NCBI GenBank assembly: GCA_025363755.1
Contig: JANYLQ010000064.1
Span: 1-64,000 of the forward strand
Source of the DNA: Hyphomicrobiales bacterium
GTDB lineage: Bacteria; Pseudomonadota; Alphaproteobacteria; Rhizobiales; Aestuariivirgaceae
Length of the DNA: 64,000 bases
Direction: 5' to 3'
Shown: positions 74 through 54,207 of the stretch, one piece after another
How positions within the stretch are numbered: the stretch's first letter is position 1
How the letters are laid out: every line of letters begins with the position of its first letter
Position numbers and translations under genes: made by a program
The notes under the pieces: model-generated
Databases searched by the model: none
What the model saw: the letters and a program-made list of their open reading frames with translations, nothing else
Told to the model about the DNA's origin: nothing

Positions 74-91
74 TCAAAGCCCTTAATTTTC

Positions 92-1276
92 TTACTTGAT
101 GATCTCTCCCACGCGGCCAGCACCGACGGTGCGACCACCCTCGCGGATGGCGAAGCGCATGGTTTGCTCCATGGCGATGGGGGTGATGAGCTCGACTTCG
201 AGATTAATGTTGTCGCCCGGCATCACCATTTCAACGCCTTCCGGGAGCTTGATACTGCCGGTCACGTCGGTGGTGCGGAAGTAGAACTGAGGACGATAGT
301 TCGAGAAGAACGGCGTGTGACGGCCACCTTCTTCTTTCGAAAGCACATAGATCTCAGACTTGAAGATCGTGTGACCTTTGACAGTGCCGGGCTTGGCGAT
401 GACTTGGCCACGCTCAACTTGGTCCTTTTTGAGACCACGAATGAGGAGTCCGACGTTATCACCTGCACGACCTTCGTCGAGCAGCTTGCGAAACATTTCA
501 ATGTCCGTGACGGTGGTTTTCTGCGTGTCGCGGATACCGACGATCTCGACCTCCTCCATCTTCTTCACGATTCCGCGCTCAACCCGACCGGTGCAAACCG
601 TGCCCCGGCCTTCAATCGAGAACACGTCTTCAATCGGCATGAGGAAGGTTTTGTCAATCGGACGCTCAGGCTCAGGGATGTAAGAATCCACTGCGTCCAT
701 GAGTTTCATGACGTTTTCCATCTGGGCTGGGTCGCCGTCAAGGGCAAGCTTGGCCGAGCCCATGACGATCGGGATGTCGTCACCTGGGAATTCATCCATG
801 GAAAGGAGGTCACGGACTTCCATTTCGACGAGTTCGAGGAGTTCGGCATCGTCCACAAGGTCAACCTTGTTCATGAATACCACGAGGGCAGGCACGCCAA
901 CCTGACGGGCCAGTAGGATGTGCTCGCGGGTTTGTGGCATTGGGCCGTCAGAAGCTGACACAACCAGAATACCGCCGTCCATTTGGGCCGCACCAGTGAT
1001 CATGTTCTTGACATAGTCAGCATGGCCTGGGCAATCAACGTGGGCATAATGGCGGGCCTTGGTTTGATATTCAACGTGAGCAGTATTGATCGTAATACCA
1101 CGCGCGCGCTCCTCAGGGGCCTTATCAATCATGTCATAAGCTGTATAAGTCGCACCACCGGTTTCTGCCAAAATCTTGGTAATCGCTGCCGTCAGCGATG
1201 TCTTGCCATGGTCAACGTGACCAATCGTGCCAATGTTGCAATGTGGCTTGTCGCGGTTGAATTTCTCTTTTGCCAT
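92..1276 (-). CDS. tuf: Elongation factor Tu, copy 1
   Basis: GTPase that delivers aminoacyl-tRNA to the ribosome. The 394-residue product has the family's usual length. The nucleotide-binding motifs GHVDHGKT (19-26), DCPGH (81-85) and NKVD (136-139) are intact, and domains 2 and 3 are complete ([16 protein letters not shown] near the end). The ATG is 27 bp after fusA, making it the last gene of the str operon. A second copy lies at 18574-19764. The two proteins are identical over residues 1-139 and then differ at roughly a third of positions, with a net two-residue length difference near residue 185. Bacterial tuf pairs are normally almost identical, so this copy's 3' two-thirds is unusual; see findings. 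Function is certain, origin of the divergent part is not. Confidence 0.98.
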
Positions 1277-36725: not shown

Positions 36726-37016
36726 ATGGTCAGCATCTTAATCAGAAACCTGAGCGACGAAACTAAGAAAGCGCTCCGCATCAAGGCGGCCGAAAACGGT
36801 CGCTCGATGAACGAAGAGGCACGGTCATTAATTGTAGCGTGTACAATGCAAAAACCGTTTCAAAAAAACCAACCCACAGCAAGTAACTGGGTCGATAAAT
36901 TGTTGTTGAACCTGCGCTCCATTGGCAAAGCTGAATTAGAGTTACCGCCGCGTGATGAAGCCCCGCCTCCTCCTGATTTCAGTGGGCCGGAGTTCGGGCC
37001 GAGTGAAAGTGAATGA
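36726..37016 (+). CDS. FitA/VapB-type ribbon-helix-helix antitoxin
   Basis: A 96-residue protein whose first 50 residues form a ribbon-helix-helix DNA-binding domain of the FitA type: ILIRNLSDETKKALRIKAAENGRSMNEEARSLI. The C-terminal half is acidic and Pro-rich and would bind the toxin (PPRDEAPPPPDF). Its stop overlaps the start of the PIN-domain gene by four bases (ATGA). A TGATATCA palindrome lies 16-30 bases before the ATG and could be its operator. The partner toxin is frameshifted, so this may now be a solitary antitoxin. Confidence 0.85.
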   Translation: MVSILIRNLSDETKKALRIKAAENGRSMNEEARSLIVACTMQKPFQKNQPTASNWVDKLLLNLRSIGKAELELPPRDEAPPPPDFSGPEFGPSESE

Positions 37017-37452
37017 TCGTTCTGGATACGAATGTGATCTCAGAACTATTCGCCAATACTCCAAACCCAAAAGTAATGACTTGGCTTTCAAGTCAAAACT
37101 TAAACAACTTGTATATTACAACGCCAACAATCATGGAACTCTGGTCATGTGCTTTACGTCCTCCAATTGGCAAAAGGCGCCTTCAACTCGAAGAAAAAAT
37201 TACTTTGATAACTGAAAAATATATTTTAACCGCACCCCCATTTTGGATGAAGAATCTGCAAAGCTGAGCGGAAAATATGTAGGCGATCAATTCCTGAAGC
37301 GCCTGAAACCCTCAATAGAAAATTGTCAAATTACCGCTATCGCATCCGCTAATAAGTTCATAGTTGCCACGCGAGATACGAAAGATTTTGAACACGAAGG
37401 GACTAGTTATCTTAAACCCATGGGAAGACAATTAAGTGGGGTGTCACCGTAA
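37013..37452 (+). pseudogene. VapC/FitB-type PIN-domain toxin, frameshifted
   Basis: Two overlapping frames together spell one PIN-domain RNase. The first (37013-37267) starts MIVLDTNVISELF with the catalytic Asp at 5 and has IMELWSCALRPPIGKRR, including the second acidic residue. The second (from about 37246 to 37452) resumes with LDEESAKLSGKYVG and ends TRDTKDFEHEGTSYLKP. A one-base deletion in the CCCCC or TTTT run near 37235-37245 explains the shift. The third acidic position, usually Asp in a DAQIAAIA-type motif, is Asn here (ENCQITAIA). Both point to an inactive toxin. The stop lies inside the CGTAATTCC repeats, so the native C-terminus may also be gone. Confidence 0.75.
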
Positions 37453-37475: not shown

Positions 37476-37623
37476 AACCAGATATATCAAACTACCTACG
37501 CGGTCGTACCCAAGGCTTCTCGGTGGAACGGTTGATGTTGATGCTCACCAAATTGGGCTGCGATGTGAAAGTGGTGGTGCGGCCAGCAGCGGGGGCGAAA
37601 AAACAGGGCGGGATTAGTTTTAA
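37472..37623 (+). pseudogene. Truncated HTH_37-type (XRE) antitoxin remnant
   Basis: One frame, opening directly after an in-frame TAA, reads FQPDISNYLRGRTQGFSVER and goes on through LMLMLTKLGCDVKVVVRPA. This matches the C-terminal half of XRE-like antitoxins of the HTH_37 type, where QPDVS-x-LLRG is the recognition helix and ALG-x-DVEIVV follows. There is no start codon and the N-terminal half is absent. The frame runs on into the palindromic repeat at 37652. It is a remnant of a second toxin-antitoxin locus. Confidence 0.6.
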
Positions 37624-37651
37624 GAGGATGGTGCTTGATATAGGTTACTTT

Positions 37652-37729
37652 CCCTCTCGCCCGTGCAGCGGGGAGAGGGTTGGGGCCCGTCCGGCGTAGC
37701 GCAGCGAAGACGGACGGGAGGGTGAGGGG
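37652..37729 (+). repeat. Two-hairpin palindromic repeat, copy 1
   Basis: CCCTCTC ... GGAGAGGG makes one stem and CCCGTCCG ... CGGACGGG the next, joined by TTGGGG and closed by AGGGTGAGGGG. A related copy lies inverted at 39159-39222. The two bracket the DUF5343/HEPN gene pair. The stretch from 37730 to 37804 beyond this copy holds nothing recognisable. Confidence 0.75.
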
Positions 37730-37804
37730 TGGTGCGGCGAGGTGAAATGCTCGTGATAAATTTTTAACTCATCGCAACTCTACAATCAACTCAGAGACTT
37801 TAAA

Positions 37805-38386
37805 TTATACGGCGACTTGAGCCGACCAGTCTCGAATCGCGGAGCCTACGCGGGCCACATCTCGCTCATGGAGAAAACCACTATGCATTATGACATTCCT
37901 CGATCTCTCAATTGTGTCGAATATACTGCCTGCCCAGTTTATGTCATTAACGAACGGTAGGAACAATTGTTCGTTATTCCGCATTATGTTCAGTAAGTTC
38001 GGCAACATCGTAAATTGAATTGGATCGGAGCCTCTCTGAGCGTGCCACCTAACTCTTTCTTCTTCGTCCATTCTGACTTTGGCGGCATCTCGAATTTTTT
38101 GTGAAACATATTTTTCCCACCAATCCGCTTCACCTGTGTCTGAGAGTACCTTTGATATCAATTTGCGAACCGAGTTTTCAAAGGCAGCAACCGCTGTATA
38201 AACAGTAGCCATAATACGCGCACGAGCAACCAACTCTTCATCTAAATTGTTGATGCCCACCAACTCGGCAATTTTTAAGTTATCTGAAGCGGAATGGTTG
38301 CTGTGAATTCGACCAGCCTTGTCCAATGCTTCCTCAGCGAGCGATCCACGAAAAACAAAATTGTAGGCTTTATCTATTTCCTTCAT
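37805..38386 (-). CDS. Swt1-type HEPN domain protein
   Basis: A 193-residue all-helical protein. The C-terminal half matches the Swt1-type HEPN domain: a FENSVRKLISKVL helix near residue 70, MLPNLLNIMRNNEQLFLPF near 130, and RNVIMHSGFL near 165, the R-x4-H motif that is catalytic in HEPN ribonucleases. Its ATG overlaps the stop of the upstream DUF5343 gene (TAATG), so the two are made together. HEPN proteins are often RNases of toxin-antitoxin and phage-defence systems. Whether this one cuts RNA is not shown; the motif is present. The pair is AT-rich against its surroundings and is bracketed by inverted repeats. Confidence 0.75.
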   Translation of the reverse strand: MKEIDKAYNFVFRGSLAEEALDKAGRIHSNHSASDNLKIAELVGINNLDEELVARARIMATVYTAVAAFENSVRKLISKVLSDTGEADWWEKYVSQKIRDAAKVRMDEEERVRWHAQRGSDPIQFTMLPNLLNIMRNNEQLFLPFVNDINWAGSIFDTIERSRNVIMHSGFLHERDVARVGSAIRDWSAQVAV

Positions 38387-39003
38387 TAAAACAGATGCTC
38401 TTTCAGACTTCTGAATAATACGTCATAGACTTTTGGGTCTCTTGATTCAGGTAAAATCAATTGTATATTATAGTGAAGACCTCCAAGGGCAATTCGGTCT
38501 GCTTTTGGCACTCTCGGGACTTCATTTTCAGCCTCGGTTGGCGGCATCGCTTGTTGGGAGATGTTTTGTTGGCGACTACCCTCGAAATCGGCCAAAGCGC
38601 AAAGTTGAACAAAAGTACGCGCCAAATTTTCGTTTACAACGTCAGTTAGCTGTCCCTGAGATAGAGTTTTAAATTTACTCATGACGTCTTGTTTTGACAT
38701 TTTATTGGCATTGGTATTTGTCTTAAACAAATCCTCATATGCCTCTTGAATGCCTTCCGCGAGAACTGAAGCTGACTGCGTCTTGTCCAAGAATCGGAAA
38801 TACCTGTCTGTTGGTTTGCCTACGTCATCTAAAAGTCCAAGCGACTTCAAAACTCCAATTATCAGACGGTCGGTTGCCGATTTGAAATCTAGGGACTCTA
38901 AAAACCTAGTTGTAAATTTGTCAGGAGCCTGTGCCTCTTTGATAGCGTCCAATATGGCAGAGAGATTTTTTCCACTTGTAAGATATGAAGTAGGTAACGC
39001 CAT
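38386..39003 (-). CDS. DUF5343 domain protein
   Basis: A 205-residue protein of the DUF5343 family, function unknown. The N-terminal 130 residues carry the family pattern (YLTSGKNLSAILDAIKEAQAP, FKSATDRLIIGVLKSLGLLD, LAEGIQEAYEDLF), which looks like a winged-helix or other DNA-binding type fold. After an acidic linker at about 150-165 a short beta segment ends it (HYNIQLILPESRDPKVYDVLF). GAGGAA precedes the ATG and a weak TTGCAC-N18-TATCAG promoter is possible. It is the first gene of a two-gene operon with the HEPN protein, so it is a candidate antitoxin or sensor; that role is inferred from context only. Confidence 0.75.
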   Translation of the reverse strand: MALPTSYLTSGKNLSAILDAIKEAQAPDKFTTRFLESLDFKSATDRLIIGVLKSLGLLDDVGKPTDRYFRFLDKTQSASVLAEGIQEAYEDLFKTNTNANKMSKQDVMSKFKTLSQGQLTDVVNENLARTFVQLCALADFEGSRQQNISQQAMPPTEAENEVPRVPKADRIALGGLHYNIQLILPESRDPKVYDVLFRSLKEHLF

Positions 39004-39158
39004 TCAGTGGATTCCTCACTTTAAAATACTGATAGTAGAGCGTTCATGTTTTGTGCAAAAGCGTCAAATGTAGTTGTTCACATATTTGTTGCTGCAAGCG
39101 AGTGACCCCTTTACTTTCACCGGTATGAATTGTGGTTGATATTGAGCTTGCTGTAAGG

Positions 39159-39222
39159 CCCCTCACCCTCCCATGTCGCTGACGCGCCATGGGCCCCAAC
39201 CCTCTCCTCAACGAGGAGAGGG
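39159..39222 (-). repeat. Two-hairpin palindromic repeat, copy 2 (inverted)
   Basis: Read on the minus strand: CCCTCTCCTC-GTTG-AGGAGAGGG, then TTGGGG, then CCCATGG ... CATGGG, then AGGGTGAGGGG. The joining TTGGGG and closing AGGGTGAGGGG match copy 1, whereas the second stem is CCCAT/ATGGG here against CCCGTCCG/CGGACGGG there. The stem changes are compensatory. The rest of the 39004-39241 gap holds no gene. Confidence 0.75.
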
Positions 39223-39241
39223 AAAGAAGAGGACAAAGCGG

Positions 39242-40909
39242 TTAGCGTTTTAGGGCGCGGTTTACGCCGCTTACTACTGCTCGAAGAGACGCCACCACGA
39301 TGTTTTTGTCGATGCCGACGCCAAAAAGCGAAGTCCCATCAACCAGCCTCAGTTCCACATAGGCAATGGCGGCTGCGTTGGCGCCGGTGCCCATGGCGTG
39401 TTCGCGGTAATCGGCGATGTCAAAGCCCACGCCGCTGTCTTTGCGGATCGCGTCGACGAAGCCGTCGACGGGGCCGTTGCCGTGGCCGGATAAGGTTTTC
39501 AGTTTTCCGTCCACCATCAGTTTGGCGCTGATGGGTTGGTCGCCGTGGTCAGACGGGCTTGAATGTTCCACGAATTTATAGCGGCCATTGCCTTCGAGAT
39601 ATTCGGCTTCGAAGGCGCTCCACAGACGGTCTGCTGCAACTTCAACGCCCTCACCGTCGGCGATGTGTTGCACCACTTTAGAGAATTCGATTTGCAAGCG
39701 CCGCGGCAAATCGATGCCGTGTTCAGTTTCCATCACATAGGCGATGCCGCCCTTGCCGCTTTGGCTGTTAATGCGCACCACGGCCTCATAGGAACGGCCC
39801 AAATCCATGGGGTCAATCGGCAGGTATGGCACTTCCCAGAGCGGCTGATTGCTGGCCTTCATCGCTTTGAAGCCTTTGTTGATGGCATCTTGATGCGAGC
39901 CTGAAAACGCCGTGAACACCAGTTCGCCCGCATAGGGGTGGCGCGGGTGGATGGGCAGCTGGTTGCAATATTCGGCCATGCGCACTAGGTCATTCACATT
40001 CGAAATATCCAGTTTCGGATCAATGCCTTGGCTGAACATGTTCATAGCTAACGTTATGATATCAACATTGCCTGTGCGCTCGCCATTGCCGAATAATGTG
40101 CCTTCCACACGGTCAGCGCCCGCCATCAAGCCAAGCTCGGTTGCGGCAACAGCGCAGCCGCGATCATTATGGGCGTGGAGGCTATAGATTATGCTGTTGC
40201 GGTTTTTGATGTTGCGCACCGACCATTCAATTTGGTCAGCATGGACGTTTGGCGTGGCGGCTTCTACTGTGAATGGCAGATTGAGGATCAGGCGCTGCTG
40301 CGGCGTGGGCTCAATGACATCCATCACCGCCTCGCAAATTTCTTTGGAGAAATCGAGCTCGGTGCCCATGAAACTTTCGGGAGAATATTGAAAGCGAATG
40401 GCTTGTTTCATGCCGCTTTCGTCCGTCATTTTGCGGATAAGTTTTGCGGCACCCACGGCGATATCCCTAATACCAGCGCGATCTTTTTGAAACACCACGC
40501 GGCGTTGCAGTTCGGAAGTGGAATTATAAAAATGCACGATGGCGTGTTTAGAGCCTTGTATGCCTTCAAAGGTGCGGCGGATCAATTCTTCACGACATTG
40601 CACGAGGACTTGGATAGTCACGTCATCGGGGATCAAATTATTGTCGATCAAGTGGCGGCAGAAATCAAAATCAGTCTGGCTGGCAGAGGGAAAGCCAATT
40701 TCGATTTCTTTGAAACCCATTTTAACCAGCGCATTCCACATGCGAATTTTGCGGTCGGGGCCCATGGGTTCTATGAGCGATTGGTTACCGTCGCGCAAAT
40801 CGACGCTGCACCAGATTGGTGGGGCGGTGATTTGGGCCGTGGGCCATTTGCGGCCCGGCAAATCGATGGGCGCAAAGGCGCGGTATTTCTGGGTGGGATT
40901 TATCATCAT
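39242..40909 (-). CDS. leuA: 2-isopropylmalate synthase (LeuA2 type)
   Basis: First committed step of leucine synthesis, condensing acetyl-CoA with 2-ketoisovalerate; 555 residues, the long LeuA2 form. The catalytic segment VDLRDGNQSL is near residue 35 and the metal-binding HAHNDRG near 245. The C-terminal 130 residues are the leucine-sensing regulatory domain (LRLVDGTSLFGVGIDKNIVVASL). Upstream lies a 15-codon leader ORF with five Leu codons and a GC-rich hairpin, so attenuation by leucine supply is likely. It starts MMINP, with two possible ATGs. Certain as to enzyme. Confidence 0.97.
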   Translation of the reverse strand: MMINPTQKYRAFAPIDLPGRKWPTAQITAPPIWCSVDLRDGNQSLIEPMGPDRKIRMWNALVKMGFKEIEIGFPSASQTDFDFCRHLIDNNLIPDDVTIQVLVQCREELIRRTFEGIQGSKHAIVHFYNSTSELQRRVVFQKDRAGIRDIAVGAAKLIRKMTDESGMKQAIRFQYSPESFMGTELDFSKEICEAVMDVIEPTPQQRLILNLPFTVEAATPNVHADQIEWSVRNIKNRNSIIYSLHAHNDRGCAVAATELGLMAGADRVEGTLFGNGERTGNVDIITLAMNMFSQGIDPKLDISNVNDLVRMAEYCNQLPIHPRHPYAGELVFTAFSGSHQDAINKGFKAMKASNQPLWEVPYLPIDPMDLGRSYEAVVRINSQSGKGGIAYVMETEHGIDLPRRLQIEFSKVVQHIADGEGVEVAADRLWSAFEAEYLEGNGRYKFVEHSSPSDHGDQPISAKLMVDGKLKTLSGHGNGPVDGFVDAIRKDSGVGFDIADYREHAMGTGANAAAIAYVELRLVDGTSLFGVGIDKNIVVASLRAVVSGVNRALKR

Positions 40910-54049: not shown

Positions 54050-54095
54050 AGACTCGTCCTCTTCTGTATGTCTCTCTAACGTCAATTCGCCCAAT

Positions 54096-54119
54096 AAAAA
54101 AGGCCCCCGAGAGGAGCCT
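54096..54119 (-). terminator. ilvB attenuator terminator
   Basis: Minus-strand AGGCTCC-TCTC-GGGGGCCT (7 bp with one T-G) followed by TTTTTT. It stands between the leader peptide and ilvB, the position of a transcription attenuator. GGGGG-TTAA-CCTCC upstream offers an alternative pairing. Confidence 0.85.
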
Positions 54120-54149
54120 ATTTTCGCGCAACACCTAATCTGCCGGAGG

Positions 54150-54200
54150 TTAACCCCCAGAGGTGATGCGCGACCGGACGACGACGAGAATGTTTTTCAT
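54150..54200 (-). CDS. ilvB leader peptide
   Basis: A 16-codon ORF, MKNILVVVRSRITSGG, with Ile, Leu, three Val and a further Ile: the three end products of the pathway. It is followed by the terminator at 54096-54119. This is the standard layout of an ilv attenuator. There is no Shine-Dalgarno, and the -10 box ends seven bases before the ATG, so the message probably begins at or next to the start codon. Confidence 0.8.
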   Translation of the reverse strand: MKNILVVVRSRITSGG

Positions 54201-54207
54201 GGGCGCT

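Follow-up and report, generated by a model that had tools for sequence, protein, structure and literature searches.

A DUF5343-HEPN gene pair 3' of leuA and a C-terminal tail that recurs beside HEPN-like genes

The locus and its two proteins

In a 64,000-nucleotide stretch of contig JANYLQ010000064.1 from a Hyphomicrobiales bacterium (the window, by which we mean the whole stretch analysed), a small DUF5343 gene (gene A) is followed by a gene for a Swt1-like HEPN protein (gene B), and the pair is flanked on one side by a gene that we take to be leuA and on the other by older toxin-antitoxin (TA) debris (Table 1). An initial annotation, made from the sequence, had described overlapping DUF5343 and HEPN genes, the latter with the motif RNVIMH, in an AT-rich cassette, and this is what lies there: base 38386 is common to both genes, and the pair has 43.3% G+C compared with 49.9% for the window, within the lowest 0.3% of 1200-bp windows. 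The genome holds a single DUF5343 copy. A promoter and terminator scan found no sigma-70-like site in the stretch scanned upstream of A (six such sites fall inside genes, against 2.4 expected), and the sole operator-like candidate found upstream is a weak inverted repeat with 6 of 7 pairs matching.

Table 1. Features of the gene pair and its surroundings (window coordinates)
Feature	Position	Strand	Basis
Gene A, DUF5343 protein, PDC-M34A, 205 aa, first of pair	38386..39003	-	PF17278, PDLC04589
DUF5343 domain of A, residues 5-142	38578..38991	-	Pfam match, AlphaFold2 model
C-terminal tail of A, residues 170-205, terminal helix 190-204	38389..38496	-	Model, profile searches
Gene B, Swt1-like HEPN, PDC-M34B, 193 aa, predicted endoribonuclease	37805..38386	-	PF18731 below cut-off, PDLC04592
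HEPN R-x4-H motif RNVIMH, R163 and H168 of B	37883..37900	-	Alignment
A stop / B start overlap, TAATG, 1 shared base (38386)	38384..38388	-	Sequence
Two-hairpin dispersed repeat, copy 1	about 37648..37737	.	Repeat search, folding
Two-hairpin dispersed repeat, copy 2, inverted	about 39155..39225	.	Repeat search, folding
leuA, 555 aa; variable locus with the pair on its 3' side	39242..40909	-	
TA debris outside the pair: FitA-like antitoxin and broken PIN gene	36726..37452	+	

The pair is already catalogued as PDC-M34, a phage defence candidate only, in PADLOC-DB 2.0.0: A matches the PDC-M34A model PDLC04589 (246 bits, 9.3e-74, residues 1-204 on 1-207 of 208) and B the PDC-M34B model PDLC04592 (226 bits, 5.3e-68, residues 1-192 on 1-191 of 192), so that both matches are full-length and have the expected adjacency. 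Because the catalogue already holds it, calling the module undescribed, as the annotation had, was too strong. Literature searches found no paper naming PDC-M34 and none naming DUF5343; passages of two citing papers (PMC12988326, PMC13092281) credit the PDC set to a 2024 preprint by Payne and colleagues.

Protein A matches the DUF5343 family clearly (144 bits, cut-off 27, E 4.3e-42), and in its AlphaFold2 model helices extend to about residue 151, with confidence scores (pLDDT, by blocks of ten residues) of 83-98 to residue 150. The structures ranked nearest to the DUF5343 model include tandem helix-turn-helix (HTH) DNA-binding domains of the BrxA and FokI-BpuJI type, and no other fold class stood out in the neighbour list, where absence proves nothing. 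DNA-binding HTH modules common to BrxA, FokI and BpuJI are described in part of PMC12839542. Kinship with BrxA (PF08849) by sequence was rejected (hhalign probability 0.3% against nine BrxA sequences). Sequence searches of the PDB returned nothing of weight, and profile comparison of A with M34B gave nothing. We infer that the helical domain of A may bind nucleic acid through tandem HTH units.

Protein B scores under the curated cut-off for HEPN_Swt1 (23.9 bits against 27.5), and three of its relatives score above it (47.5, 59.2 and 35.4 bits). The R-x4-H residues are invariant in all 101 aligned B proteins, some of them partial, fitting the R-x4-6-H catalytic motif of HEPN_Swt1. This and the matches of its relatives liken B to the Swt1-like/Abi2 HEPN RNases, and on superfamily membership B would be a HEPN endoribonuclease. 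Part of PMC3710099 includes bacterial Swt1 versions held to be catalytically active; the bacterial contexts given in that part are fusions to AAA+ (DUF499), transmembrane or winged HTH/Vsr parts, and a DUF5343 partner gene is not among them.

Recurrence of the pair and of its tail

Relatives were sought with an alignment of eight B proteins that did not include the window's own, and the best 80 of 150 matches in genome contigs together with 7 in viral contigs gave 87 loci. In 83 of the 87, gene A is immediately upstream of B, an adjacency far beyond chance and the recurrence that the annotation had proposed to look for. Three of the four exceptions run off their contig (L055, L099, L120), and the fourth (L068) carries A and B in one 401-amino-acid frame whose first part looks frame-shifted and may thus be an error. 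Among the 83 loci, the frame of A is split in two (L037, L041) and cut by a contig end in one (L096); the A-B junction, by first start codon, spans -17 to +10 nt in 81 and is -56 and -64 nt in the other two. Pairwise distances of A and of B are correlated (r = 0.84, reached in 0 of 999 permutations; 94 rows, 89 of them different). The layout is TA-like, with two small, coupled, adjacent genes and the putative regulator first. What stands of the annotation's proposal is a conserved HEPN gene pair of defence or TA type, sporadic and mobile in distribution, which is supported by the PADLOC match, the adjacency, the invariant R-x4-H, the correlated distances and the distribution given below; the pair is a real, conserved and mobile module, already a listed candidate.

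No part of A is better conserved than its tail (residues 170-205), which has an entropy of 0.87 compared with 1.45 for the rest of the protein. A tail profile matched 13 loci among 297 genomes of the order, of which 12 were DUF5343 loci (one of these, in G034, being split by a contig break) and one (G223:C200) was not. A broader profile matched 10 of 398 phylum genomes and 11 of 385 class genomes (overlapping sets), with two of the class matches near threshold and judged to be chance. Pooling the searches with the M34A model, DUF5343 and the tail profiles, we tabulated 32 tail-bearing loci, leaving aside L013 (contig break in A, the other half being L222), the fragment L034, L030/L036 (the same place as L231), the chance matches L244 and L245, and loci fetched twice.

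A partner gene follows the tail in 31 of these 32 loci, and the partners are of four kinds. M34B is the commonest, at 21 loci. Four loci have a protein of 157-163 amino acids with RNPRGH or RNPKGH, which by motif we take to be of the Ymh type, and the M34A model also matches the regulator of one such Ymh-like pair (L014, 1.3e-21). A protein of 172-176 amino acids with RNQCAH follows in three loci, presumably HEPN-like (again by motif), and the regulators of these three have no detectable DUF5343 domain. The remaining three have a protein of 170-171 amino acids with GDKSSH or GDKSAH, which we assume to be DUF4145-like. The single locus with no close partner (G677) has a transposase-like open reading frame (ORF) 218 nt further on. 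Of five DUF5343 proteins that lack the tail, none has a same-strand ORF of at least 110 amino acids within -120 to +60 nt (Fisher p 1.4e-5). Three of the five (L022, L028 and L029, in G155, G241 and G409) differ at the C-terminus and are without a nearby partner gene.

The region 3' of leuA and the spread of the pair

LeuA matches occur in all 37 genomes of the genus, being weak and paralogue-like only in G017, G021, G022 and G415 and mainly a contig-end fragment in G006. The M34A model was searched in 25 genus genomes (five more were without DUF5343 in the search of the order, and G413-G419 were left out), and M34 pairs were found in four: the window's genome, G003, G007 and G024. The pair of G024 is on a 5.4-kb contig without leuA; the three that can be placed all lie 3' of leuA, at 0.24 kb in the window, 5.8 kb in G003 and, on the opposite strand, 1.2 kb in G007. 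The window's pair is only 32/23% (A/B) identical to that of G003 and 29/24% to that of G007, whereas its LeuA is 93% and 81% identical to theirs, and the pair is 61/48% identical to that of G217, a member of another family, in whose 18-kb surroundings there is neither leuA nor rpsB. Since the genus pairs are far more diverged than LeuA and the closest pair belongs to a different family, the simplest reading of these comparisons would be that the pairs were acquired separately at one variable site; fast divergence of one old locus may instead account for them.

The flank of leuA was fetched from 27 other genus genomes, covering about 0.15 to 12.6 kb past the gene and short where contigs end. 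None of the 27, several of them shortened by contig ends, contains rpsB, and what the annotation had called an accessory gap between rpsB and leuA is better described as a variable region 3' of leuA. PADLOC models matched 61 families on 132 ORFs from 25 of the 27 flanks, and among the 25 of these families listed are SduA, a CBASS cyclase, NucC, methyltransferases, a CARF regulator, PDC-S67, PDC-M72A and two further M34 pairs. NucC occurs in one of 25 genus genomes and SduA in two, one of the latter matching only in part, on a different contig of G016. Both NucC and a full Shedu SduA are found in G005 (L174, G005:C37 37000-49620), 0.8 and 5.4 kb past leuA. The 3' flank of leuA is possibly a defence hotspot of this genus.

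Site-specific insertion into the 3' end of leuA is not supported for the window, where we found no convincing attachment-site duplication. A 12-bp exact repeat is present 2.6 kb past the leuA stop codon, and the best of five shuffles gave 10. With the leuA 3' end as query, second matches were seen in G013 (137 bp) and G024 (43 bp). In G413 (L156, G413:C95), 67 bp closely resembling the leuA 3' end stand about 0.75 kb beyond the gene; this is the only long near-copy among 28 genomes scanned, and is such as an integrating element using this site would leave.

The inverted two-hairpin repeats that the annotation saw bracketing the pair are present and fold at -41 (copy 1) and -32 kcal/mol (copy 2). 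The suggestion that they bound a mobile unit did not hold: the copies are 72% identical over their aligned part, five of the seven matches to this repeat family in the genome lie elsewhere than at the pair's flanks, and there is the lack of a convincing attachment-site duplication noted above. We rejected them as cassette ends; they are incidental dispersed repeats. A Pfam scan bears out the TA debris that the annotation also reported: a FitA-like antitoxin occupies 36726-37016 (+), and the frame that comes next, 37013-37267 (+), contains a PIN match above cut-off. A further frame (37243-37452, +) has no Pfam match over cut-off, and from its position we take it to be the remainder of the same apparently broken PIN gene. 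A 58-amino-acid frame at 37523-37699 (+), which resembles the end of a HigA/XRE-type antitoxin, is presumably more such debris.

Beyond the genus, DUF5343 is sporadic, occurring in 22 of 397 genomes of the order. In a quick tree, a pair from Gillisia (Bacteroidota) and one from Ignavibacteriota nest within a proteobacterial clade. Firmer than these cross-phylum placements is the finding that the pair closest to the window's belongs to a different family of its order and not to its own genus. On four of the seven viral contigs (L118 and L121-L123), the 69 ORFs near the pair include two each of the integrase, terminase, repressor, CII-like and excisionase families. Searches of plasmids and phages, and of E. 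coli DNA, for close relatives mostly returned none, and one gave a single weak plasmid match. Ahead of the Gillisia pair (L061), at 79-822 (+), lies a further protein of HEPN appearance, with RNTLAH, placing two HEPN-like genes together. A record labelled 'Frankia sp. RB7' (L042/L020) is probably a mislabelled Bradyrhizobium: it and G343:C118, from the window's order, seem to be one and the same contig, and G343:C118 shares its genus code with G305, whose contig matches Bradyrhizobium sp. 149.

Possible mechanism and alternative explanations

The reading that we favour, at roughly even confidence, is that of a defence or conflict module of two components that moves horizontally, and in which a HEPN endoribonuclease (B) has an obligate partner (A) that docks on it by the tail and silences it until infection. 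Protein A would consist of the helical DUF5343 domain, a flexible linker and the conserved tail docking on B; B would be kept silent by A in the resting cell; and A, on sensing infection-related nucleic acid or protein, would release or activate B, which would then cut RNA and stop the growth of the phage or the cell. What the comparisons show is the near-obligate adjacency in the order A then B, a junction geometry of translational coupling, the invariant R-x4-H, the correlated divergence of the two proteins, the sporadic distribution with the window's closest pair in a different family, the phage-like carriage and the association of tail and partner gene; RNase activity, tail docking, the direction of control, the trigger and the anti-phage effect are the parts that we infer. 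The leuA flank, the phage-like carriage and the PADLOC listing point to defence. Falling a little short of even confidence, we also propose that the 36-residue tail may be a general HEPN-docking plug, carried by regulators whose N-terminal sensors vary (DUF5343, weak DUF5343 or an unrelated HTH-like part) and serving at least four distinct HEPN-type RNases; these two-gene defence systems would then form a single superfamily that swaps partners, with PDC-M34 as only one branch. Protein A could control B as an inhibitor (antitoxin) or as an arming subunit, and by analogy both are precedented: an antitoxin-first order rule is discussed for MNT-HEPN pairs in part of PMC3710099, linear neutralising elements at the N or C termini of partner-swapping antitoxins are described in passages of PMC10440598, and in the DS-5 system, as presented in a section of PMC13092281, a PIN RNase and its DUF5830-containing partner are both needed, removal of the partner is not toxic, and the system is likely not a TA system.

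The pair could instead be a plain type II TA system, with A an autorepressing antitoxin and B an RNase toxin in an addictive or stabilising element that has no specific anti-phage role. A pair of short, coupled genes headed by the regulator, an order that fits the rule for MNT-HEPN pairs, an AT-rich locus beside older TA debris and neighbours that are not clearly defence-rich would all suit this account, yet we consider it unlikely, as the pair is nearly absent from plasmids, where addiction modules are common, the leuA flank in the genus also houses NucC and Shedu genes, and no strong operator was found upstream of A beyond the 6-of-7-pair inverted repeat. Alternatively, A could be a targeting or activating subunit, both proteins being needed to cleave RNA and there being no free toxin to neutralise. 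Near-obligate pairing is what this would lead one to expect, the single frame of L068, possibly an error, would be consistent with it, and DS-5 offers a parallel, but it does not by itself predict that the tail should swap partners, and we think it very unlikely. A third possibility bears on the tail, which might be a dimerisation element of A, with the HEPN-like neighbours reflecting shared descent of one operon type and not docking. This receives some encouragement from the covariation of A and B, in which the tail is not singled out, and from the likeness of three of the five tail-less proteins (L022, L028, L029), which look like one subfamily, so that the contrast with tail-bearing proteins is not one of five independent events; we nevertheless judge it improbable, given that regulators of the RNQCAH type, without detectable DUF5343, keep both the tail and the following partner gene in 3 of 3 loci, though these are close relatives.

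Besides the covariation result and the related tail-less proteins, several other observations weigh against the docking and defence reading or against the movement of the pair. Members of a partner type are in part close relatives, and the Ymh-like partner profile cannot be aligned with that of M34B (0.4%). The profiles of the three non-M34B partner types were built from these same loci, which makes the type labels circular but not the finding that a partner ORF is there. The tree has flagged long branches, the contig from Gillisia spans only 3.8 kb, and the Ignavibacteriota record, like many others, is a metagenome bin. Plasmids are almost without the pair. There is no clear defence enrichment around it: PADLOC matched 98 families among 145 of 361 ORFs scanned near the pair and 25 among 145 of 237 far from it, but several models can match one protein, only 25 families are listed and the matching member is not identified; the Pfam families listed for neighbours outside the genus are largely housekeeping.

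The association between tail and partner gene looks new, being absent from the literature listings and passages searched, and is the part of these findings most worth testing. Close parallels are Panacea (PanA) and NetFlax, which, in passages of PMC10440598, likewise combine a sensory domain with an end piece and one regulator type with several effector families; there a domain is common to unrelated toxins, whereas here the 36-residue tail is common and the partners all appear HEPN-like. Three of the four partner labels are our own, given by motif. If the tail ties a sensor to a HEPN RNase, it would provide a handle for finding and sorting HEPN two-gene systems and would explain how sensors and effectors are exchanged. 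DUF5343 is widespread, and the tail idea would turn the catalogued but mute PDC-M34 into a mechanism with testable parts. Elsewhere in the window, an Rfam search matched the Rhizobiales small RNA Atu_C8 at 54086-54204 (-), with 57.3 bits against a gathering score of 50.
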